From Magnetococcales bacterium (GTDB taxonomy: Bacteria > Pseudomonadota > Magnetococcia > Magnetococcales > JADFWU01), in NCBI GenBank assembly GCA_015234045.1, contig JADFWU010000074.1, forward strand, positions 1-11,145: a stretch of DNA of 11,145 bases, read 5' to 3'. The translations under genes and the position numbers were made by a program. The notes beneath the pieces were generated by a model that had not been told where the DNA came from, searched no databases, and saw only the letters and a program-made list of their open reading frames with translations. Of this stretch, positions 1 to 11,048 are shown one piece after another (the stretch's first letter is position 1; each line of letters starts with the position of its first letter).

Positions 1-32
1 TTTTTTTTTTTTTATCAGTAAGGGCGTCTCTC

Positions 33-1742
33 ATGCCTGTAGATAATCGATTTTCTTTACTCCTCACTCTGCTATTCGGTTCGCTTCTGCTGACCGGATG
101 CGAAACCATGCTCGATCCGGTATCAGATTTTGATGTCCGGGCGAGAATGGATGAAGACCGGAAAGAGTTGTTTACCGCTCAGGAACCAGTCAGAGGGCCG
201 ATCACCATGTACGAAGCGATGGCACGTGCCATCAAGTACAATGTGGAAAAGCGCCTGAAATTGATGGAAGAAGAGGCCCTTAAAGGCAAATATGAACTCT
301 CTCGTCTTGAACTACTGCCTCGACTGTCAACAACGCTAAGCAGTAATGCGCGCTCCAATGACAGCGGTGGTGTATCACGCTCTTTGCTGGATGGTTCTCA
401 ATCTTTGGTCGCTTCAACCTCTCAGGAGAAGAACCTCAGCTCAGCGGATATGAGCCTGACTTGGAATGTATTGGACTTTGGTATCAGCTATATTCGCTCC
501 AAACAGAGCGCCAACGATATTCTCATCGCACGTGAAAAACGGCGTAAGGTGATCCAGGACATCATTAAGGATGTACGCACTTCCTATTGGCGCGCCGTTG
601 GTGCAGCCTATCTTAAAGATGATGTCGATGCCCTGCTGAAAAAGACCACATTGGTATTGCAACGTGCCCGAGAAATGGAAGAGAAACAGATTCGTGCGCC
701 GCTGAAAACGTTAAATTTTCAGCGCACACTGCTTCAGGTGGAACGTAAGCTCAAAGAGATGCGCCACAAAATGTGGATCGCTAAAACCGAACTTGCAGCC
801 TTAATGAACCTACCACCGGGAACGCCGTTTTCTCTGGCTTTGCCAACTGAAAAGGATCTGATGACACCCAACCCACCGGCTGCCATCGATCATTTGGAAT
901 ATCTCGCCCTGTATAATCGTGCGGAACTGCGTCAGGAAGACTATGCAACCCGCAACTCAGCCGAAGAGATCAAACTGGCCTATTTAAGCCTGTTTCCAGG
1001 ACTCCAGATATCCGATACCGCCACGTGGAACTCCAACTCCATGTTAGCCAACAATACCTGGATGCAAGCCGCAGTTCAGGTCTCCGGCAACTTGGTCAAT
1101 CTGTTTACCGCACCCACGGTTATCAATGCTGCTGAACAGCAGAAAAGACTTGCTGACATGCGCCGCATCGCGTTGAGCATGGCTGTTATTACTCAGGTTC
1201 ATGTCGCCTATGGTCGAATGTTTCTGGCCATGGAAGATTATGATCTGGCTCGGCGTTTGGAAACAGTCAACTGGCGTATTTTCAAAAGCGTGGAATCGGC
1301 ATCCAGAGCCAGTTCTGAAGGTGAATTTGAACTGGTGCTCAATGCGGCCAATGCCCTTTCCGAGCGTATGCGGCGTTTGACTATTTATGCAGAACTTCAA
1401 AATGCCATGGGCAGTATTTTTGCTTCAATCGGTCACGATCCATTGCCCGAATCCGTACCATCCAATGACGTAGCCACGCTCTCCTGGGCAATTGAAACCA
1501 ACTATAACACGCTGCCGCCACCACGTTCGGATGATGTGCAGTTTCAACAGACGCTGTTGATTCATAAAAAAGCACGTAACAAACCCATGAGTCTGAAATA
1601 TTTCCTGTTTGGCATTCCAGAAGATGCCGATGATTTTCAGACGCTTTGGGAAACAGGTGACCGTACGGAAGATGATCCGAATGGCGACTTTACCTCGGTT
1701 TGGTCTCCTGAAACGGATGTGCCTGCGCCACCTGGACCATGA
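33..1742 (+). CDS. TolC-family outer membrane efflux lipoprotein
   Basis: This is probably the outer-membrane exit duct of the export cluster. TolC-family proteins form trimeric alpha/beta barrels that cross the outer membrane and reach into the periplasm. The N-terminus is a lipoprotein signal: a hydrophobic stretch at residues 8-20 ends in the lipobox L20-T21-G22-C23. Glu at +2 rather than Asp favours outer-membrane sorting. Residues of about 60-470 are long, amphipathic and helix-rich, with the two-repeat look of the OEP family. Examples are the AMARAIKYNVE segment near residue 63 (typical of the first helix) and the later LYNRAELRQEDYA segment. The 569-residue length exceeds the usual 450-490 because of a polar, proline-rich tail of about 97 residues from residue 473. 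The start has an AGGG-type ribosome site 8 bases upstream. The adaptor gene follows 49 bases after the stop. Family assignment is firm; the substrate is unknown. Confidence 0.88.
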   Translation: MPVDNRFSLLLTLLFGSLLLTGCETMLDPVSDFDVRARMDEDRKELFTAQEPVRGPITMYEAMARAIKYNVEKRLKLMEEEALKGKYELSRLELLPRLSTTLSSNARSNDSGGVSRSLLDGSQSLVASTSQEKNLSSADMSLTWNVLDFGISYIRSKQSANDILIAREKRRKVIQDIIKDVRTSYWRAVGAAYLKDDVDALLKKTTLVLQRAREMEEKQIRAPLKTLNFQRTLLQVERKLKEMRHKMWIAKTELAALMNLPPGTPFSLALPTEKDLMTPNPPAAIDHLEYLALYNRAELRQEDYATRNSAEEIKLAYLSLFPGLQISDTATWNSNSMLANNTWMQAAVQVSGNLVNLFTAPTVINAAEQQKRLADMRRIALSMAVITQVHVAYGRMFLAMEDYDLARRLETVNWRIFKSVESASRASSEGEFELVLNAANALSERMRRLTIYAELQNAMGSIFASIGHDPLPESVPSNDVATLSWAIETNYNTLPPPRSDDVQFQQTLLIHKKARNKPMSLKYFLFGIPEDADDFQTLWETGDRTEDDPNGDFTSVWSPETDVPAPPGP

Positions 1743-1791
1743 TCTGTTTTATCTCTTAACTCACTCGCTTTGGCTGGATTATACTGTTGCC

Positions 1792-2571
1792 ATGAATCGA
1801 ATCTTTCGTACTTTGTTGATATCTTTCAGCACACTGCTGTTTGCAGTTCCGTCAACACTTATTGGCGACACAGACACCTCTCCTGAAGCGTTGCTATACG
1901 GTGCGGTTCAAAGCAGTGGCCTTCGTGCTTTGCTACATCCAAAACGAGAAACCACCCTGGCCAGTCAGATGGGCGGACGTATCCTACGTTTGACAGTTCG
2001 CAATGGTGAACGGTTTGAAGCGTGGCAGCCTCTGGTTGTTTTTGACTGTGAAATCAATGAAGCACGGCTCAAAAAATCTGCTGCTGGCGTAAAAATGGCC
2101 ACTAAAAAACATGAAGCCAACCTGATGCAGAAACAGTACGGCTCTGTGGGTGATCTGGAAGTCGGTGTCAGCGAAGCAGAACTTGAAGAGACTCAAGCGG
2201 AACTGGCAATTCAGCAAGCCCAGGTAAAAATGTGTCAGATTGCGGCACCTTATCCAGGTCGTGTAATCAAGACCCATGTCCACTCTCATCAATCAGTGCC
2301 CTCTGGTGAACCGTTACTGGATATTTTGGATGATTCGGAACTGGTGGTGAAGCTCTATGTGCCATCACCTTGGTTACGCTGGTTGAAGACCAACACATCA
2401 TTCATGTTAAGTATTGATGAGACAGGCAAGCGTTATCCTGCCCGTATACGCATGTTTGGTGCGGCAGTAGATCCAGCCAGTCACACCATTGAAGTCAGCG
2501 CAGAAATTGAAGGAAAGCATTCTGAACTACTTTCCGGCATGAGTGGAACCGCTCATTTTAAGACACCGTAA
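1792..2571 (+). CDS. Periplasmic adaptor (HlyD/RND membrane-fusion protein family)
   Basis: This is a periplasmic adaptor that would link an inner-membrane partner to the TolC-type duct. I chose the ATG at 1792, giving 259 residues, because it starts a signal-peptide-like segment (MNRIFRTLLISFSTLLF, residues 1-17). An in-frame extension back to 1609 would overlap the TolC gene and place hydrophilic sequence before that signal. In order there are a first half lipoyl/biotinyl-like domain at about 54-86 (GGRILRLTVRNGERF), a short helical hairpin at about 88-147, a second half-lipoyl at about 148-181 (APYPGRVIKTHVHSHQSV), and a beta-barrel-like region ending near 225. It stops soon after, so the membrane-proximal domain of full-length RND adaptors (350-400 residues) is mostly missing. 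The ribosome site is weak, which suggests translation tied to the gene before it. No RND or ABC pump is nearby. Confidence 0.85.
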   Translation: MNRIFRTLLISFSTLLFAVPSTLIGDTDTSPEALLYGAVQSSGLRALLHPKRETTLASQMGGRILRLTVRNGERFEAWQPLVVFDCEINEARLKKSAAGVKMATKKHEANLMQKQYGSVGDLEVGVSEAELEETQAELAIQQAQVKMCQIAAPYPGRVIKTHVHSHQSVPSGEPLLDILDDSELVVKLYVPSPWLRWLKTNTSFMLSIDETGKRYPARIRMFGAAVDPASHTIEVSAEIEGKHSELLSGMSGTAHFKTP

Positions 2572-2625
2572 GAGTAAAATTTTGCCTGTTTCAATCGGCA
2601 ATTGTGTAACGCCTAAGTCACTATC

Positions 2626-2631
2626 TATAAA
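2626..2631 (+). promoter_or_regulatory. Possible internal promoter -10 (TATAAA) before the GAF-HlyD gene
   Basis: In the 85-base gap between the two adaptor genes, TATAAA lies 18 bases after TTGTGT (2602-2607), a poor -35 match with 3 of 6 consensus bases. The ten bases ATCTATAAAC that include it (2623-2632) occur again at 6972-6981, before the sensor gene. This would allow the last three genes of the cluster to be made separately. It is based on consensus matching only. Confidence 0.25.
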
Positions 2632-2656
2632 CCTCAAACAGTAGAACTTACCGCCC

Positions 2657-4090
2657 ATGGCGACGTCGAAAAATATTGTACCCAGCCGCAAACCCCCACC
2701 AGCAAAGGGGCGTGTTGCCCCTAACCCGGAAATGGATAGTCTGAAAAGGCAAAACCAAGGGTTGAGCACACTGCTTCAGCTGCAACGGGAACTTTTGCAA
2801 GGAGACACAGCGGATGCATTGATCTTTATTGTGGTCAATGACAGCCACCGCTTGGTGCCCTATCGACAAGCTATCTATTGGGAGCCGAAATCAAGGCGGA
2901 AAGCACGTATCAAAGCCGCTTCCGGTGTTTCTCAAATCGACAGCAATGCACCCTTTTCTATCTGGATGCAACAGGTCTGCTCCGGTCAGCTAAAACGGGG
3001 CGATGCCAAACTGGCGCGCGTTGTTGGCAAGGATGATGTCCATACCCGACTCCATGAAGGCTGGGAACAGTGGAGCGCTGGCCATGTGCTTTGGTTGCCC
3101 TTGGTGGATCAAAGTTCAGATACGCTTCTGGGCGGTCTATGGATGGACCGTAATGTCCCGTGGCAAGAGAGTGAAATCACCATTCTGAAACTGCTTGCGG
3201 AAGTGCAGGCACATGCGCTTGCCAGTTTGCACTGTCGGAAACGCTCATTTGCCCATCGTCTGCGCGCCATACTGCCTAAAAGCATCTGGCGTGTCTTACT
3301 GCTACTCATTATAACCGCCTGCATGTGGATTCCTATTCATCAATCCGTGTTGGCTCCGGCTGAAGTGGTTCCACTGGATCCGGTGGTCGTGACATCACCA
3401 TTGGATGGCGTGGTCAAAACGTTTTTTATCAAACCCCACGAAGCTGTCCGAAAAGATCAACCTCTGTTTAGTCTGGATGATACAGCCATTCGAAATCGGC
3501 ATGAGGTGGCAAAAAAATCTCTCGCCGTGGTTAAGGCTGAACATCTTCAAGCAGCGCAAAAAGCGTTCTGGGATACCGAAAGTAAAGCAGACCTCGCTCT
3601 ATTAGAGGCTCAAATCACAACCAAAAAAGCTGAGGTGGAGTATACCCGCGAGTTGTTGGACCGCGTAATTATCCGCGCTGAACGCGATGGCATGGCCGTA
3701 TTCAATGATATCAATGACTGGATCGGCAAACCGGTAGCACTGGGTGAAAAGGTGATGACCCTGGCAGATCCTGAGCATTCGGAACTGCAAATCTGGATTC
3801 CGGTCAGCGATGCCATCAATCTGGATGCGGGTGCTAAAACGCTCTTTTTCTTAAACGTAGACCCCACCAAACCACTGTCCGCTTCACTGTACCGCGCCTC
3901 TTTTGAAGCACAAAAGACACCGGAAGATATTCTGGCCTATCAGGGCAAAGCAACGTTTAGCGATGACTTGTTAGTGCAACCTCGGGTTGGATTGAAAGGC
4001 ACAGCGAAGATATTCGGACGAGAAGTGTATCTCTACTATTATCTGTCTCGTCGTCCATTAGCGGCTGCGCGTCAGTTCCTGGGGCTATAA
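2657..4090 (+). CDS. GAF-like domain fused to membrane-anchored HlyD-type adaptor
   Basis: This 477-residue protein has an unusual layout for an adaptor. Residues 1-30 are a basic, proline-rich tail. Residues of about 35-195 resemble a GAF-type domain: a helix at 27-48 (SLKRQNQGLSTLLQLQRELL), a strand/helix core, HVLWLPLVDQSSDTLLGGLWMDR near 143-165, and a closing helix ESEITILKLLAEVQAHALASL at 171-191. One membrane segment follows (about 212-227) with Arg/Lys before it, so the GAF-like part should be cytoplasmic and the rest periplasmic. The periplasmic part has two half-lipoyl motifs (about 243-275 and 338-370) around a short coiled hairpin (about 278-335), then a beta-barrel-like region. 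The stop codon TAA is followed at once by the ATG of the M50 gene, so the two are probably translationally coupled. HlyD homology is clear; the GAF call is by pattern only. A ligand or signalling role is inferred. Confidence 0.82.
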   Translation: MATSKNIVPSRKPPPAKGRVAPNPEMDSLKRQNQGLSTLLQLQRELLQGDTADALIFIVVNDSHRLVPYRQAIYWEPKSRRKARIKAASGVSQIDSNAPFSIWMQQVCSGQLKRGDAKLARVVGKDDVHTRLHEGWEQWSAGHVLWLPLVDQSSDTLLGGLWMDRNVPWQESEITILKLLAEVQAHALASLHCRKRSFAHRLRAILPKSIWRVLLLLIITACMWIPIHQSVLAPAEVVPLDPVVVTSPLDGVVKTFFIKPHEAVRKDQPLFSLDDTAIRNRHEVAKKSLAVVKAEHLQAAQKAFWDTESKADLALLEAQITTKKAEVEYTRELLDRVIIRAERDGMAVFNDINDWIGKPVALGEKVMTLADPEHSELQIWIPVSDAINLDAGAKTLFFLNVDPTKPLSASLYRASFEAQKTPEDILAYQGKATFSDDLLVQPRVGLKGTAKIFGREVYLYYYLSRRPLAAARQFLGL

Positions 4091-6256
4091 ATGCAGGCCG
4101 CTGCTGCAAAACCGATGATTCAAATGGGTGGTCAACAGGAGTTGACCACTCTGCCGCCCTTGCGGCAGGAATTAGGGCTGTTCCCAGGTCCAAGGCAACC
4201 GGATGGATCGCCAACATGGTCTGTTCACGATCCCATTCGCAATCGATTTTTTCGTATTGGTTGGTTGGAGTTTGAGATTCTCAAGCGCTGGGATAGAATT
4301 GGTGATGCTGACCCACTTATTGAAGAGGTGCTGACACAAACCACGCTGCGTATCAACAAGAGCCATCTTGAGCAACTGTTGAAATTCCTTATGGTCAACC
4401 AACTCCTTCAATCAAAGGGGGGGGAAACATCTAAGAAATTTGCCAGTCAGATTGCGGCCAGCAAGCAGAATATTTTTTCATGGCTTTTGCATCACTATCT
4501 CTTTTTCCGTATTCCACTGCTTAAACCAAATAAATTTTTAGAAGCCACACTGCCCCATGTGCGCTTTTTCTTTACCAAACGATTCATTAAATTGCTCATT
4601 CCCTTGGCACTGATAGGGCTGTATCTCGTCATGCGTCAATGGGATCTGTTTACACAAACATTTCTCTATTTCTTTTCAGCGGAAGGGTTTGCCTATTTTA
4701 TCATGGCCACGGTGTTTACCAAGCTGGTCCATGAAGGCGGGCATGCCTACGCCTGTAAGCACAATAAGATCAATGTGCCCAATATGGGCATTGCGTTTAT
4801 GGTCATGTGGCCGGTCTTCTATACCGACACATCCGAAACCTGGAAACTGGTGAGTCGTTGGGCCAGACTTCAAGTAGCCGCAGCGGGCATTATGGCAGAG
4901 CTTGCCCTGGCGGTGATTGCTATTTTACTCTGGAGCTTTCTGCCTGATGGACCGGTCCGCAGTGCGACTTTTTATGTCGCATCGGTCTCATGGATTACGA
5001 CGCTGATGATCAACCTCAGCCCGTTTATGCGTTTTGACGGGTATTATCTATTAGCAGATTTTCTTGATATTACCAATATGCAACCACGCTCTTTTGCCAT
5101 AGGGCGCTGGAAAATCCGTCGGTTACTGCTCGGGCTACAAGAACCTTTTCCTGAACCTGGACTACCCAAGCGTACCCGCCGGATCATGATGTGGTATGCC
5201 TATGGCACCTGGCTTTATCGTTTGACACTGTTTATCGGTATCGCCCTGCTGGTTTACAATATGTTTTTTAAGCTGGCAGGCGTCGTTCTGATGGCTGTCG
5301 AAATTTTATTTTTTGTGACTTTACCGATATTTCGGGAGCTGAAGCACTGGTTTCAGATACGCCAAATGATCCACTTTAATCTAAATATCGTGATCACTAC
5401 GCTGATTTTAGCTGGTTTGATCACGCTTTCCATCATCCCATGGAGTACCCAGATTGAGGCATCTGCCTTGATGAAATCTCGTGAGCACAGCATCATCTAT
5501 CCACCGCTTTCTGGTCAACTGGACAAGGTGCATGTGCAATGGGGTTCTCATGTGCGTCGTGGCGAACCGCTTTTCACCATGAGTTCACCGGATCTCACCT
5601 TTGAAAAGGATCAGGCACTCACGCGGATTCAATCCATTCGTGCCCAAATAGCCAGCCTGATCGCACGTGAAAAACAGCTGAGTAGCCGACAGATTCTGGA
5701 ACAGCAGCTTGCTGAAACCATGGCCACACTTCAAGGTGTCAAAGAGCAGCTGTCTAAATTGGTGATTACCGCACCGTTTGATGGTGTCATCGCTGAATTG
5801 GATGAAACATTGCGCGCAGGTCGTTGGTTGAATGAAGATCAACAGCTGGGGCTGTTGATCAATCCACGTCAAGCGCAGGTCGCAGCCTTTGTCTATGAAA
5901 ATGATCTGACGCGGATTCAGCTTGGCGGTTTTGCCAAGCTCTATCCTGAGAATCCAGATCTTGAACCAATTCCTTTAACCGTGCGTTCCATAGATCCGTC
6001 CAACACACGAATTATTGAGGAGATGTACCTTTCCTCAATCTATGGCGGAGATATTGCTGTACGCCAAGGTGAAAAAGGCGAGATGATCAGTAATGAAACG
6101 ATCTATCGCGTTCTATTGCAACCGCCAGAATCGTTTCCGCTTCCAGCGCAAGCCATGCGCGGCACCGTTCAAATGCAAGGTACGCCATTGAGCCTTATAG
6201 AGCGCGCCTGGACAGTGGTTTCAGCAGTCGTTATTCGTGAGAGTGGTGGATTCTAA
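4091..6256 (+). CDS. M50 site-2-type metalloprotease fused to HlyD-type adaptor, with PqqD/RRE-like N-terminus
   Basis: This 721-residue polytopic membrane protein has three parts. Residues of about 43-106 (from TWSVHDPIRNRFFRIGWLEF) resemble the PqqD/RiPP-recognition winged-helix fold. Residues of about 165-450 are the membrane region, with roughly seven to eight hydrophobic segments and the M50 zinc site: H214-E215-G216-G217-H218, plus N308-x-x-P311 leading to D316-G317. The catalytic and zinc-binding residues are all present. Residues of about 455-700 are periplasmic and HlyD-like: a half-lipoyl at 466-498, a coiled coil at 503-555, a second half-lipoyl at 557-590 and a barrel region after it. 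Proteins with this layout are often annotated as putative peptide zinc metalloproteases, or HlyD-family/site-2 protease fusions. In this cluster it is the only polytopic inner-membrane member. It could cleave the exported substrate or a regulator, or act as a conduit platform. The start directly abuts the previous stop. Confidence 0.9.
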   Translation: MQAAAAKPMIQMGGQQELTTLPPLRQELGLFPGPRQPDGSPTWSVHDPIRNRFFRIGWLEFEILKRWDRIGDADPLIEEVLTQTTLRINKSHLEQLLKFLMVNQLLQSKGGETSKKFASQIAASKQNIFSWLLHHYLFFRIPLLKPNKFLEATLPHVRFFFTKRFIKLLIPLALIGLYLVMRQWDLFTQTFLYFFSAEGFAYFIMATVFTKLVHEGGHAYACKHNKINVPNMGIAFMVMWPVFYTDTSETWKLVSRWARLQVAAAGIMAELALAVIAILLWSFLPDGPVRSATFYVASVSWITTLMINLSPFMRFDGYYLLADFLDITNMQPRSFAIGRWKIRRLLLGLQEPFPEPGLPKRTRRIMMWYAYGTWLYRLTLFIGIALLVYNMFFKLAGVVLMAVEILFFVTLPIFRELKHWFQIRQMIHFNLNIVITTLILAGLITLSIIPWSTQIEASALMKSREHSIIYPPLSGQLDKVHVQWGSHVRRGEPLFTMSSPDLTFEKDQALTRIQSIRAQIASLIAREKQLSSRQILEQQLAETMATLQGVKEQLSKLVITAPFDGVIAELDETLRAGRWLNEDQQLGLLINPRQAQVAAFVYENDLTRIQLGGFAKLYPENPDLEPIPLTVRSIDPSNTRIIEEMYLSSIYGGDIAVRQGEKGEMISNETIYRVLLQPPESFPLPAQAMRGTVQMQGTPLSLIERAWTVVSAVVIRESGGF

Positions 6257-6257
6257 T

Positions 6258-6264
6258 TAGGAGA
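6258..6264 (+). promoter_or_regulatory. Ribosome binding site TAGGAGA deciding the start at 6271
   Basis: AGGAG at 6259-6263 lies 7 bases before the ATG at 6271. A GTG immediately before it (6268) is also in frame, but at 4 bases it is too close to the Shine-Dalgarno sequence, so the ATG is preferred. Confidence 0.7.
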
Positions 6265-6270
6265 ACAGTG

Positions 6271-6825
6271 ATGGCAGAGTCCGATGAGCGTGCTTTGAAA
6301 CTGGAAAAGAAGCGTGCACGGCTAAAAGCCGAAAAACGGCGTGCAGCAGCCAAGGCAAAAGCCAAGGCCGCCAAAGAAAAGGCCGCAACCAACGTGCAAC
6401 AGGAAGATCAACCAGAGAGCGGCAAAACCACCAAAGCCAAAACCCGCTACGCTATTCAACAGCTTCTCAGTGCTAATTTCACCGCAGACCGTGAAAATTT
6501 CTCACTGGTCTTCGAACTGAGCAATAAAAAGAAACTGACGCTGGATTGTGAAAATAAACGCTTGGCCCAATTAATCAACGCATTACAAGGGCTCGAATAT
6601 GCCGCAGCCATGCAAGATCCCAAGTTTCAAGGCAACAAACAGGGTGTCACAGCCCGGTTTGAACGGGCGGAAACAGTGCATAGCACTCAGGTTGAAATGA
6701 ACCATGAGAAAGTGAATCTAATCGGCGTTAAAGTGCAAAAAGGTCCTATTCGCTGGTTTGGCTTCTCACCTGAAGGGGTTACAGCCCTGTTCCAAGCCGC
6801 AAGACAGCTGGTGAGAAAACGGTGA
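6271..6825 (+). CDS. Small basic protein of unknown function, last gene of the export cluster
   Basis: I do not recognise this 184-residue protein. It has no signal peptide or membrane segment, so it should be cytoplasmic. Residues 1-40 are extremely rich in Lys, Ala, Arg and Glu, with KAKAKAAKEKAA-type repeats, and predict a long charged helix or coiled coil. Residues 41-57 are a polar linker. Residues of about 58-184 look like a compact alpha/beta domain: FSLVFELSNKKKLTLDCEN (78-95) reads as a beta hairpin, RLAQLINALQGLEYAAAM (97-114) as a helix, then strands such as EKVNLIGVKVQKGPIRWFGFS, and a closing helix (168-182). The gene has a good ribosome site and starts 14 bases after the M50 gene, so it is very probably co-transcribed. 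It may serve the exporter on the cytoplasmic side, for example as a substrate chaperone or an assembly factor. That is a guess from position only. Confidence 0.82.
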   Translation: MAESDERALKLEKKRARLKAEKRRAAAKAKAKAAKEKAATNVQQEDQPESGKTTKAKTRYAIQQLLSANFTADRENFSLVFELSNKKKLTLDCENKRLAQLINALQGLEYAAAMQDPKFQGNKQGVTARFERAETVHSTQVEMNHEKVNLIGVKVQKGPIRWFGFSPEGVTALFQAARQLVRKR

Positions 6826-6843
6826 TACGGTTTTCCTGTATCA
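6823..6843 (+). terminator. Weak stem-loop at the end of the export cluster
   Basis: TGATAC (6823-6828) and GTATCA (6838-6843) form a perfect 6-bp stem with a 9-base loop. It starts on the TGA stop codon of the last cluster gene. The stem is only moderately stable and no T-run follows, so it is a poor intrinsic terminator. It may protect the 3' end or be chance. Confidence 0.2.
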
Positions 6844-6953
6844 AATGTAGCAGTCTGTTTAATAAGTGATTAAGATACCTTGATGGAACATCCGCCAGCT
6901 GCCAAGAAAACCATGCATTGTTTACATGGAAAATTCATGTGCGAACCTGAACG

Positions 6954-6980
6954 TTGTTTTATTAAAAAATCATCTATAAA
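6954..6980 (+). promoter_or_regulatory. Possible promoter for the membrane sensor gene
   Basis: TTGTTT (6954-6959) and TATAAA (6975-6980) have the look of -35 and -10 boxes, but their 15-base spacing is shorter than the ideal 17. The surrounding 199-base gap (6826-7024) holds no credible gene and is AT-richer than the flanking genes, as expected of a promoter region. The start codon lies 44 bases downstream. ATCTATAAAC around the -10 box is also found at 2623-2632. Confidence 0.35.
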
Positions 6981-6983
6981 CAG

Positions 6984-6995
6984 ACTATTAATAGT
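6984..6995. promoter_or_regulatory. 12-bp perfect palindrome, possible operator
   Basis: ACTATTAATAGT is its own reverse complement. It lies a few bases after the candidate -10 box and 29 bases before the sensor start codon, a natural place for a dimeric repressor or activator site. A 10-bp sequence partly overlapping it (TAAACAGACT, 6977-6986) recurs inverted at 6852-6861. A regulatory role is inferred from position and symmetry only. Confidence 0.3.
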
Positions 6996-7009
6996 TCAAA
7001 TGATCTGCC

Positions 7010-7015
7010 GGAAGG
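7010..7015 (+). promoter_or_regulatory. Ribosome binding site GGAAGG for the sensor gene
   Basis: GGAAGG lies 9 bases before the ATG at 7025. It supports that start, which also opens directly into the first membrane segment. Confidence 0.6.
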
Positions 7016-7024
7016 CATGACAGA

Positions 7025-9961
7025 ATGATTCCTGTTCATGTACAACCCATCATCATGGTCTACGGACTCACCCTCTTTTTCTTTGGGTCTGTTTTGTGGA
7101 GCCGTACCCAACAATGGGCACAAGTGGAAGGCGGTGAGCCTATCCGCTGGATGGGCTGGTTCGGCATGTTGTCCGGCGTGGCTGTTCTCACCCATATCCT
7201 CGGCAAAGAGGGTAGCCAGTTGGTGGCGTTGCAGGTGCTACATCATGCAATCAATGCGCTGGCGTTTACTGCATTGTGGTTTGTGGCTCTCAGCAAACCG
7301 CCTCTGTCATTCTCTATTACATTACAAAAGCGTCTGCGCTATCTGCCGCTGTTTGGTTTGATGAGCTGGTTCGGTGTGTTTGCCCTGACCCGGCTGGGTC
7401 TGCTTTCTGAAAGTTGGCCAGTTCTGGCAGAGCATCTGTTTCTGATCATACCCGCTTCAGTGACCACAGGTTTCCTGTTGATGCGCTATCCCACGCTGGT
7501 GTCAGAAGAGGGTTGGCAGGTTAAACCCATTAAACGCAGCGGTATCCTACTACTGGCTTTCGGTGTTTTTCAGCTTTTTTCACCGGCCTTTCTCGGGCTG
7601 TTTTTCTCCAACGCACTGCCGACATTTGTTCATCTTATTTTCCATCTGATTCTGCTGATTACAATCCTTGTTCTCAGTCGTATGTTTCTGCGCGGCACCA
7701 ATAAACCCATACCCAAAACACTCTCTCCTGAGGAGGAGACTGTACGGGCGGTTATTCGTGCGCCGAAACCGGAAATCAAACCGGCACCTACGATGGTAGA
7801 TCCAGATATCAGCCACCTGGAAGAGGCAAGCATCATTTTTCAATATGAAGAAGAAGATGCGCGCATCACGAATGCCAATCAACGTGCGGCTAACCTGTGG
7901 CGCTCCACCACCAACGCATTGATCGATACCAACTTCAGTCAGTTGGTCACTCCGGTTGGAGAGCAAACCAGTCTTGAAGTGGCTGATAAGGTTATGACTG
8001 ATATTCTTAATGGCCATAAGATCATCATCAAGAATATTGAGATCTTACCGGCATCTGGCGCTTCATTTCATGTAGACCTGGTTGGTATTCAACTGCCCTA
8101 TAATGATGACCAGCATCCGCTGTTTCAGCTGATCTTCTGGGAATCAGGCACACTTTTTCCGATCGAATCCAAAGACGGTGATACCACACAGAAACCTATT
8201 GATACAATTACAGAAAAAATACCTGAACCCGCTATAGACTCCAAATCCCTTCAAACCCCAGAGACAGAACCTCTTTCCGAACAAAACAGTGGTCTGCAAG
8301 AGAGTGAACTACGCCACCGCACCTTTTTCCATCGTTCGGGCATGCCGTTTTTCTTTCTGGATGAAGAAGGCGGATTGCTTCATTTTAATCAGTCCTTGCG
8401 ACTGATGACCGGCCATTCACGCGACACGTTGAAAAATCTGACCTGGCTTGATCTTTTCCCTGAGAAAAACCATGAAAAGAGTCAAGCACTGCTTGATCGG
8501 GTCATATCGGGTGATGTGGATCAGATCCATGAAGAAGCACCACTACTTCATCAAAGTGGCGCAGTTCTCTGGGTTACCATCTATCTCTCAGTACTGCGCA
8601 ATGAGACGGGCCAAATTCGGTTCCTCATGGGACAGCTGCAAGACCTGACACGGCGCAAAAAAATGGAGAAGGTGTTCCAGTATCACCATGATCATCTGGA
8701 TCAGAAGGTGAAACAGCAGGTCAAACTGCTGAAAGAAGCCGGAAACCGTATTGCGAAACAAGATATACGGCTTGAACGTCTGCACGCATTGATGACATCC
8801 CTGCCCCATGCCGTGGTCATTCTGGATACAAAGACCGCTTGTCGTATGGCAAACCCGGCCTTTGTACGATTTATTAAAAAAACCGCTAAAGAAATTCTTG
8901 GTCAACCGCTTGAGAAAATCCTGCCCGAGACGTTTGCTGAAGCCATAGTACCGTTGATTGATCAAGGACTGACCGGTACACGCATGAAACAGTGGCACAC
9001 TCTCAGATCCTCTGATGCTGAAAAACCAACAATGGATCTGCTCTGCCAACCCTTTGGCAAAAAAGAACAAGGACCAGGTGGTCTCGTGGTGGTGTTTGCA
9101 CCACAGCATATTCAGCAGGTTGCCAAAGAACCGGTGATTGAACTCTCTCTGGATCAAGAAGAGACACCCGAGCTTGATCTGGATATCTCGCCCGGCTTTG
9201 CACGTGAAATGGAGAATGCACCTGTACGTTTACAGACACCCAGTGAACCGCTCACTGTGGATACCACGGAGTCTGATGCACAAATCGAAGCATTGTGTCA
9301 TTTCCAGACCGGTGCCATGAATCGTTTTTTTGATCAGCTTGAACTTCAGATCACACCGCCAGCACGTGATCTGTATACAATGCTCAAAAACGGTCCAAAT
9401 GTGCCTCTGGATGTCCAACAAGCCAACGCCCATCTGCGTGATCTTTTAATGGCGCTGGACCGGTGCCACTCTGCATTTCCATCCAAGTCTGACGATCCTG
9501 TTTTTGCTCCCTTTGAGATCCTTCAGCCCATCGTCAATCTGGTTTCGGCAGACTTCAAACAACGGGGTATAGCACTTCGACTGCTCCCCTTTGAACAGTC
9601 TGTAGAGGTCTCTGGCAGTCCTCAGATTTTAAGTCAGGTCTTACTGACGATTCTGGAGCAGTGCCGCGATACACTGTTGAACCGCAAAGATGAGGCGAGT
9701 GAACTGGCCGGCGAAGTGATTTTGTCGATGTCTGCTCGCAACAATGAAGCGATTATTGCCATTCGTGACAACGGACCACGCATCAACCCGGATGTTCTCA
9801 TCAAACCTTTGGAATCTCAACAAAACCCAGAACGCGCCCACTCTGTTGATCTGCCTACGGCCCGCATTCTGGTTTCTGAAGGATTGGATGGTACACTTGA
9901 GGTAGTCAACGTCATTGGCGGTGTAGAGTTTAGAATTCAACTGCCCATTGCCACCGCTTAA
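7025..9961 (+). CDS. Seven-TM, multi-PAS membrane sensor with degenerate histidine-kinase core (pseudokinase)
   Basis: This 978-residue protein looks like a membrane sensor. About seven hydrophobic segments fill residues 8-222 (near 8-25, 42-59, 72-90, 106-125, 135-153, 172-195 and 200-221). Three PAS-like domains follow, at about 262-380, 427-545 (with a PAC-like end LMGQLQDLTRRKKMEK) and 587-695, with a coiled coil at about 547-586. A charged linker leads to a kinase-like end (about 753-978). There, IEALCHFQTGAMNRFFDQL aligns by eye with the H-box of HisKA kinases, but the phospho-acceptor His position is Asn766. In the ATPase part, the N-box reads TILEQCRD with Gln879 at the expected Asn. 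The G1 motif is D915-N-G-P-R, lacking its second Gly, and no GLGL-type G2 box is visible. I therefore expect no autokinase activity. No response regulator gene is adjacent. It may act by partner binding or allosteric control of another kinase. Confidence 0.85.
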   Translation: MIPVHVQPIIMVYGLTLFFFGSVLWSRTQQWAQVEGGEPIRWMGWFGMLSGVAVLTHILGKEGSQLVALQVLHHAINALAFTALWFVALSKPPLSFSITLQKRLRYLPLFGLMSWFGVFALTRLGLLSESWPVLAEHLFLIIPASVTTGFLLMRYPTLVSEEGWQVKPIKRSGILLLAFGVFQLFSPAFLGLFFSNALPTFVHLIFHLILLITILVLSRMFLRGTNKPIPKTLSPEEETVRAVIRAPKPEIKPAPTMVDPDISHLEEASIIFQYEEEDARITNANQRAANLWRSTTNALIDTNFSQLVTPVGEQTSLEVADKVMTDILNGHKIIIKNIEILPASGASFHVDLVGIQLPYNDDQHPLFQLIFWESGTLFPIESKDGDTTQKPIDTITEKIPEPAIDSKSLQTPETEPLSEQNSGLQESELRHRTFFHRSGMPFFFLDEEGGLLHFNQSLRLMTGHSRDTLKNLTWLDLFPEKNHEKSQALLDRVISGDVDQIHEEAPLLHQSGAVLWVTIYLSVLRNETGQIRFLMGQLQDLTRRKKMEKVFQYHHDHLDQKVKQQVKLLKEAGNRIAKQDIRLERLHALMTSLPHAVVILDTKTACRMANPAFVRFIKKTAKEILGQPLEKILPETFAEAIVPLIDQGLTGTRMKQWHTLRSSDAEKPTMDLLCQPFGKKEQGPGGLVVVFAPQHIQQVAKEPVIELSLDQEETPELDLDISPGFAREMENAPVRLQTPSEPLTVDTTESDAQIEALCHFQTGAMNRFFDQLELQITPPARDLYTMLKNGPNVPLDVQQANAHLRDLLMALDRCHSAFPSKSDDPVFAPFEILQPIVNLVSADFKQRGIALRLLPFEQSVEVSGSPQILSQVLLTILEQCRDTLLNRKDEASELAGEVILSMSARNNEAIIAIRDNGPRINPDVLIKPLESQQNPERAHSVDLPTARILVSEGLDGTLEVVNVIGGVEFRIQLPIATA

Positions 9962-10022: not shown

Positions 10023-11048
10023 ATGGATATCATTACACAAGGATTGTTAGGGGCCGTTGCTGCACAGGCAGCGACACGCCCTATCCATAAGGAAAAAATC
10101 CACATCATCACGATGGTGGGCTTTTTGGCAGGTCTTCTGGCCGATGCGGATATATTCATCCGTTCATCCAGCGATCCTCTGCTCACGTTGGAGTTTCACC
10201 GACAGTTTACCCATTCAATACTGTTTATTCCATTTGGCGGCTTATTGGCTGCTATGGGTCTGTGGCTGCTCTATTTCCGCGATCGTCTACCATTTAAGCA
10301 ACTGGTTCTATTTTCTACCGTAGCTTACGCCACATCCGGCATATTGGATGCCTGCACCAGCTACGGCACGCAACTGCTTTGGCCATTTACCGATCTGCGT
10401 ATTGCCTGGAATCTGGTCTCAGTGGTGGACCCGTTGTTCTCTTTGATTCTCTATTTGGGCTTACGCAGAAGTTGGAAACGCGAAGGACAACGCAATGCCA
10501 ACAGACCCGCCCGCGTGGTTCTGGTATTGGCTATCTGTTATCTCTGTTTTGGCTGGTTTCAACAAAATCGCGCCATGGTATTCATGGAGGCTTTGGCCCA
10601 TTCACGCGGCCATATCATAGAAAAACATACGGTCAAACCAACCATGGGCAATATGATACTCTGGCGGAGTATCTATCAAGCGGATGGTCAGTTTCATGTG
10701 GATGCCGTGCGTGTCTCATTGAGCGGTGAGATCAAACTGTACCCTGGCCTTTCTGTCGCTATTTTTGATGAAACAGTGACTCTACCACATGTTAAGCCTG
10801 ATTCTGTTCTATCCTATGACATCCAACGCTTTCGGCATTTCTCAGACGGCTATATCGCCACAGCACCGGATGATGATCTGATGATCAGTGATGTCCGATA
10901 TTCTCTCTTACCAAACCGATTGGATCCACTTTGGGGTATTCGCATCAATCCAGATCATCCAGATCAGCGTGTTGCCTTTGAAAATGTGCGTAACATGTCA
11001 CCAGCGCTGATGAAGCAATTCATGGCTATGATTCGTGGATTCGATTGA
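10023..11048 (+). CDS. Membrane-bound putative metal-dependent hydrolase, YdjM/DUF457-like
   Basis: This 341-residue inner-membrane protein resembles the DUF457/YdjM group (COG1988-type putative metal-dependent hydrolases), whose substrate is mostly unknown. The N-terminus MDIITQGLLGA matches the usual family opening, which is why I start at 10023. An in-frame extension to 9948 would overlap the sensor gene and adds no conserved residues. Candidate metal ligands are D41-x-D43 at the end of a membrane segment, H59 and H64 in HRQFTHS, and D109. Hydrophobic segments lie near 27-46, 63-84, 92-110, 132-147 and 164-178. A soluble region of about 160 residues follows (182-341), with alternating strands such as GEIKLYPGLSVAIFDE; many family members are shorter and lack it. 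A 61-base gap separates it from the sensor gene, so co-transcription is possible. A functional link to the exporter is not evident. Confidence 0.8.
   Translation: MDIITQGLLGAVAAQAATRPIHKEKIHIITMVGFLAGLLADADIFIRSSSDPLLTLEFHRQFTHSILFIPFGGLLAAMGLWLLYFRDRLPFKQLVLFSTVAYATSGILDACTSYGTQLLWPFTDLRIAWNLVSVVDPLFSLILYLGLRRSWKREGQRNANRPARVVLVLAICYLCFGWFQQNRAMVFMEALAHSRGHIIEKHTVKPTMGNMILWRSIYQADGQFHVDAVRVSLSGEIKLYPGLSVAIFDETVTLPHVKPDSVLSYDIQRFRHFSDGYIATAPDDDLMISDVRYSLLPNRLDPLWGIRINPDHPDQRVAFENVRNMSPALMKQFMAMIRGFD

Follow-up and report, generated by a model that had tools for sequence, protein, structure and literature searches.

Comparison with described systems

Giant repeat adhesins are known as cargo of type I secretion systems (LapA/LapBCE and the repeats-in-toxin, or RTX, adhesins), in which an ATP-binding cassette (ABC) ATPase is combined with one HlyD adaptor and a TolC-type channel. 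Tripartite pumps of the resistance-nodulation-division (RND) and major facilitator superfamily (MFS) kinds have their pump gene beside the adaptor. PqqD-like recognition elements (RREs) bind leader peptides in the systems that produce ribosomally synthesized and post-translationally modified peptides (RiPPs). In the daptide protease MpaP, an RRE is joined to a site-2 protease, which removes precursor leaders that carry ELExMEAP (PMC10036551), while the M50 protein EpeP is thought to both cleave and export its peptide (PMC10885120). The window analyzed in this study is one entire contig of 11,145 b (C89; JADFWU010000074.1), position 1 being the contig start, from the 3.65-Mb draft genome (93% complete) of a Magnetococcales bacterium (GCA_015234045.1). 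Four of its genes, for a TolC lipoprotein, a periplasmic HlyD protein, a GAF-HlyD protein and an M50-HlyD protein, form one operon on the + strand (33-6256). This operon probably encodes the components of an export system dedicated to leader-tagged giant surface proteins (the M50-HlyD exporter in the following), working by the mechanism proposed below.

The system resembles type I giant-adhesin secretion in its giant repeat protein, HlyD adaptor and TolC-type channel, and proteins with the domain DUF4347 are found in both settings. However, the M50-HlyD operon has no ABC ATPase, three adaptors instead of one, and cargo with an N-terminal leader motif and almost no RTX nonapeptides in the fragments checked (GGxGxDxx repeats were absent from 24 of 26, many of them truncated). 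Compared to RND and MFS pumps, the window has no such pump gene beside the adaptor, and none is conserved at homologous loci. MpaP and other RiPP leader proteases of the M50 family (EpeP, YydH/LiaK) resemble the window protein in their site-2-type M50 domain, in the PqqD/RRE-like domain fused to it (a putative one in the window protein) and in a short conserved leader motif with LE in the linked cargo (ELExMEAP versus LExRxMFDGA); in contrast to them, the window protein is fused to HlyD, linked to TolC and associated with giant proteins instead of peptides, and it falls far below the cut-off of the MpaP model NF041824 (149.5 bits over residues 50-410, cut-off 300). By these marks, with no ABC ATPase in the operon, no pump gene and a score below the NF041824 cut-off, the system does not classify as type I, RND/MFS or daptide protease. 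In both leader motifs, ELExMEAP and LExRxMFDGA, M stands three to four residues after LE, a similarity that is suggestive and may be due to chance.

No description of this gene set was found in the open-access literature, subscription journals being outside the search. The HlyD/TolC conduit and the RRE-M50 protease are known kinds, and to our knowledge their union into an exporter of giant proteins is undescribed. The exporter as a whole would be new in kind, to the extent that the proposed steps of the mechanism hold.

Conservation of the operon

The first-pass annotation of the window, made from the letters without database searches, had outlined five open reading frames (ORFs) on one strand and read them as TolC, HlyD, GAF-like/HlyD and M50/HlyD proteins followed by a small basic protein. 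All five frames were found at the positions it gave. The four family calls are backed by Pfam and NCBIfam, with the OEP and HlyD matches exceeding the Pfam cut-offs. The M50-HlyD protein gave 501 matches in data with one genome per species and occurs in most of 61 relatives; its hosts include members of Pseudomonadota, Nitrospirota, Desulfobacterota and Planctomycetota (among them a Scalindua). Two M50-HlyD clades are distinguished, the window's own (clade A) and a sister (clade B). Locus counts refer to 80 clade A loci fetched from the 501 matches, with flanks of up to 10 kb and many contigs ending early. The M50-HlyD gene was accompanied by GAF-HlyD at 68 of these loci, by periplasmic HlyD at 60 and by TolC at 52. 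The four-gene operon recurs in hundreds of genomes, far beyond chance, and the three HlyD adaptors of different topology are kept together with a TolC, as the annotation had read them in the window alone; they may build the mixed adaptor ring that it proposed.

Pfam and NCBIfam scans found no ABC, RND, MFS or SecA gene in the window, and no fifth conserved gene, RND/MFS or other pump, appeared among the neighbor families of homologous loci. SecA-like genes were present at 0 of the 80 clade A loci and ABC matches at 7, scattered in position and strand. The view that the cluster has neither pump nor ATPase, and that the M50 protein occupies the place of the pump, extends from the window to a conserved operon without a pump gene. 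The annotation had named a standard ABC or RND transporter gene in homologous clusters as the finding that would refute its view, and this check turned out negative. An ordinary RND, MFS or ABC tripartite pump with an overlooked pump gene would explain the HlyD and TolC homology, yet with no such gene in the window and none conserved across the 80 loci this explanation is largely refuted and barely credible.

The M50-HlyD and GAF-HlyD proteins

The core protein matches Peptidase_M50 at 32.7 bits (cut-off 27.2), and its HlyD part is also over the Pfam cut-off. Its zinc-protease motifs are intact (HEGGH at 214, NLSPFMRFDG at 308), and in the M50-HlyD alignment HExxH is present in 89 of 89 sequences, D316 is invariant and the distal motif NxxPFMRFDG is kept. 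An AlphaFold2 model (predicted local distance difference test, pLDDT, of 87) consists of a small N-terminal domain, a membrane part and a MacA-like adaptor. The small domain covers about residues 29-102 of the model, with strands at 29-33, 42-47 and 52-56 and helices in 58-102. When the clade A N-terminus was aligned to PqqD with hhalign, a probability of 90% was obtained over 62 columns, compared to 0.1 and 0.3% for control domains, and the N-termini of clade B M50 proteins reach the Pfam PqqD cut-off. These comparisons suggest that the M50 protein of the window carries a PqqD/RRE-like N-terminal domain, a putative leader binder. A sequence search of the PDB with the N-terminal domain matched only HlyD-like, biotinyl-domain and site-2 protease chains. 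The structure search with the full model returned a list filled by adaptor proteins and thus speaks to the adaptor part alone.

The GAF match of the window's GAF-HlyD protein is weak (E 0.12), and Pfam GAF is matched by 15 of 43 homologues (best 5e-6). The model of this protein (pLDDT 91) has an alpha/beta N-terminal domain of GAF type, one transmembrane (TM) helix and a MacA-like adaptor.

Giant cargo and its leader motif

The recurring neighbor of the clade A operon is a gene for a giant protein. Its length ranges from 900 to several thousand residues, and it contains cadherin, immunoglobulin (Ig)-like or VCBS repeats and usually a DUF4347 domain near the N-terminus. The first-pass annotation had named large repetitive proteins among the constant neighbors that a survey might reveal, and the giant cadherin/Ig-type protein is that neighbor; its other proposal, that the cargo is made elsewhere, is contradicted by the relatives, which encode the giant next door. 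The N-terminus of the giant has a basic stretch followed by LExRx[M/L][F/Y/L]D[G/A] (LExRxMFDGA for short), and a classical hydrophobic signal-peptide core is not present in this leader. The ORFs of the loci, 456,707 aa in all, contain 20 copies of the motif, each of them inside the first 80 residues of a giant.

The association between giant and exporter was also found at the genome level. Among 273 genomes of the phylum outside the window's own order, 27 contain both DUF4347 and the clade A M50 protein, 4 contain only the M50 protein, 19 contain only DUF4347 and 223 contain neither (Fisher test, 7e-21). Counted by genus, which controls only partly for the relatedness of species, the corresponding numbers are 17, 2, 16 and 134 (p 2e-12). 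M50 and DUF4347 genes lie at most 20 kb apart in 41 of 43 pairs, the pairs having been chosen for sharing a contig.

The motif was found in 19 of 20 DUF4347 proteins from M50-positive genomes (17 by the strict pattern and two as LEQRIAFDA) but in none of 15 from M50-negative genomes (Fisher test, 5e-9). Moreover, one M50-positive genome (G251) encodes a giant without DUF4347 that still bears the motif, as LEQRFVFDGAG. Because DUF4347 proteins of M50-negative genomes are without the motif and the G251 giant has the motif without DUF4347, the leader motif goes with the M50 exporter rather than with this cargo domain. At three of the eight M50-negative DUF4347 loci inspected (L217, L218 and L219) the motif-less gene is directly followed by ABC and type I HlyD genes. 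DUF4347 would thus be one cargo domain with two export routes, the M50 system and ABC type I secretion. As the export signal the domain was considered and rejected, since it turns up in motif-less proteins next to ABC type I genes, and the motif turns up in a giant that has no DUF4347.

The same numbers bear on the suggestion that a small peptide or metabolite is what the operon handles, in efflux or signaling, and that the giant is just a frequent neighbor. RRE-M50 proteins process small RiPP peptides and the window contig has no giant gene, both of which would suit such a device. However, LExRxMFDGA almost perfectly separates the giants of M50-positive genomes from those of M50-negative ones, and no recurring short precursor gene was seen among the neighbor families (ORFs shorter than 80 aa were left out of that listing). 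We regard this suggestion as improbable.

The window's own cargo gene was probably lost at the contig edge. The host genome holds three clade A operons (on C89, the window, and on C37 and C117), and at least four motif-bearing DUF4347 giants are encoded on contigs other than the window. Two DUF4347 giants (on C83 and C25) run off contig ends, and two of the clade A operons (C89 and C37) start at contig ends, as is expected because repetitive giant genes break assemblies. No sequence overlap was found between window position 1 and another contig end of the genome. The cargo of the window operon is probably one of the two giants cut at contig ends, C83 or C25.

The sister system and the energy source

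The clade B M50-HlyD proteins are 23-28% identical to those of the window's clade and are separated from them at 100/100 in the tree. Their operon encodes M50-HlyD, GAF-HlyD, HlyD and TolC proteins, a giant and, in addition, a SecA-like ATPase of about 660 aa, whose gene overlaps the M50 gene by 48 nt (L120, L121, L122, L124 and L111). Clade B thus has the same four-protein set as clade A, with the SecA-like ATPase added and a related cargo leader, LExRxLLSA, in which LLS[A/G] takes the place of MFD[G/A]. This leader resembles that of the LEPR-XLL proteins (NCBIfam NF012209, a motif model), for which no mechanism is described in the open-access papers searched. The giants at L121 and L124 have a LEPR-XLL-like N-terminus (LEDRILLSAE), and among three DUF4347 proteins encoded in genomes that have clade B alone, two show LLSA or LLFSA forms. 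Clade B also resembles SecA2 accessory export, where an extra SecA-like protein serves a particular group of large surface proteins; unlike SecA2 systems, clade B has no SecY2, and clade A has no SecA-like gene at its loci. SecA2 models score far below their cut-offs on the clade B SecA-like protein.

Since the sister operon carries its own SecA-like ATPase, the likeliest motor of the clade A system would, by analogy, be the housekeeping SecA/SecYEG. The annotation had supposed a distant or shared energy source, and the sister system with its SecA-like ATPase sharpens this supposition. Supply of the SecA-like protein in trans from a sister operon was rejected as a general rule for complete or named genomes that contain clade A only, because G059 (a single contig) and 12 of the 14 named genomes with clade A have just the housekeeping SecA. 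In the window's own genome, which also holds a clade B operon with a SecA-like gene on C108, supply in trans is possible.

A further explanation is that housekeeping SecA/SecYEG moves the cargo across the inner membrane and that the M50 protein is mainly a processing factor similar to a signal peptidase, serving also as an anchor of the conduit. The SecA-like gene of the sister operon, the clade A genomes with housekeeping SecA only and the removal of leaders by M50 proteases in RiPP systems are all consistent with this explanation, whereas the leader without a classical hydrophobic core and the lack of a linked SecY partner argue against it. It overlaps with the M50-HlyD exporter proposed here, differing solely in the weight given to the protease, and we consider it a serious if somewhat doubtful alternative.

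Proposed mechanism of the M50-HlyD exporter

In the proposed mechanism, the cargo would be a giant cadherin/Ig/VCBS protein with the basic leader LExRx[M/L]FD[G/A], which the PqqD/RRE-like domain of the M50 protein would bind in the cytoplasm. The M50 core may then cut off the leader or hold it in the membrane. Judging from fold and operon structure, the giant would enter a sealed conduit docked on TolC and built from the periplasmic HlyD protein together with the HlyD parts of the M50 and GAF-HlyD proteins, and the GAF domain may gate export. Passage through the inner membrane would be driven by housekeeping SecA/SecYEG. The chances seem to us evenly balanced for the wider idea of a new class of secretion system, in which an RRE-bearing intramembrane protease replaces the ATP-driven pump of type I systems, with an N-terminal leader instead of a C-terminal signal picking giants for the HlyD/TolC conduit and with sister versions using their own or the host's motor.

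Several observations weigh against this mechanism. The usual substrates of site-2 proteases are transmembrane helices, which the leader does not clearly resemble. The assignment of the clade A N-terminus to PqqD is remote, with 4 of 56 members matching the Pfam model (best E 0.09). The motor is proposed by analogy, and no giant gene is in view on the window contig. DUF4347 is present in 19 M50-negative genomes, so its presence by itself does not mark the system. At some betaproteobacterial loci the M50 and cargo genes have no TolC or HlyD gene next to them. Finally, the cargo has a C-terminal tail, G[LF][ST]xQ[LV], about 33 (30-34) residues from the end (16 of 32 cargo proteins versus 21 of 600; e.g., L044, L095, L039 and L081), which could be a type I-like C-terminal signal and may act as a second signal or an anchor.

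The tail would be the true signal if export were of a type I-like kind, powered by a borrowed ABC ATPase whose gene lies elsewhere, with the M50 protein only processing the cargo. The TolC and HlyD parts are of type I kind, a type I HlyD is encoded elsewhere in most clade A genomes, and DUF4347 proteins of M50-negative genomes can adjoin ABC and HlyD genes. However, no ABC gene is conserved across the 80 clade A loci, the N-terminal motif is missing from the DUF4347 proteins at ABC loci, and of the 31 M50-positive genomes that fall outside the order, six (G050, G064, G095, G113, G189 and G251) have no type I HlyD at E 1e-30, with five candidates scored per genome. We therefore judge a borrowed ABC ATPase to be unlikely.

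Giant repeat proteins are among the largest bacterial genes, and many of them start with LEPR-XLL or LExRxMFDGA, with an export route so far unassigned; in several phyla this start is now linked with one defined set of genes. If the M50-HlyD exporter works as proposed, very large proteins have a way across both membranes that needs no ABC pump of its own, and the leader logic known from RiPP peptides also holds for giant secreted proteins. With its SecA-like ATPase, the sister version opens the energy question to direct test.

Features of the window and neighboring genes

Table 1. Coordinates of features in the 11,145-b window
Feature	Position	Strand	Basis or remark
Contig edge	1..32		In relatives, TolC is usually preceded closely by the end of the giant cargo gene
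TolC-family outer-membrane channel, lipoprotein, 569 aa	33..1742	+	LLTGC lipobox; Pfam OEP 8.4e-22; first gene of conserved operon
Periplasmic HlyD/RND-type adaptor, 259 aa	1792..2571	+	Signal-peptide-like start; HlyD_3 2.5e-16; RND_mfp 7.5e-25; second gene of conserved operon
GAF-like domain (cytoplasmic), one TM helix, periplasmic HlyD adaptor, 477 aa	2657..4090	+	HlyD_3 5.5e-12
M50-HlyD core inner-membrane protein, 721 aa	4091..6256	+	PqqD/RRE-like N-terminus, polytopic M50 (site-2-type) metalloprotease, C-terminal HlyD
PqqD/RRE-like domain of M50 protein, candidate leader-binding (about residues 30-103)	4178..4399	+	Predicted secondary structure; hhalign to PqqD
Small basic ORF directly after M50	6271..6825	+	No Pfam/NCBIfam family over cut-off; lineage-specific

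The small basic ORF, which the first-pass annotation had counted as a member of the cluster, was rejected as part of the system, being present in 1 of 61 genomes (its own only). It has a good ribosome-binding site.

Gene content varies around the operon in other genomes. At the betaproteobacterial loci L058, L059, L062 and L080, M50-HlyD adjoins a motif-bearing or DUF4347 giant, with no adjacent TolC, HlyD or GAF-HlyD gene, and such loci possibly represent a minimal module or a split system. FecR-domain proteins, a Cache-GGDEF protein and a PilZ-GAF hybrid kinase adjoin some clade A operons, either upstream of the giant or TolC gene (L037, L039 and L049) or downstream (L112 and L114), which hints at control by cyclic di-GMP. 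At L123 a two-partner secretion channel of the ShlB/FhaC type (7616-9313) and a large ORF (1-7601) adjoin the clade A operon.

In the window itself, the cluster is followed by genes for a PAS-rich sensor with a weak HATPase domain (7025-9961) and a YdjM-type membrane protein (10023-11048), neither of which showed a recurring association with the operon.

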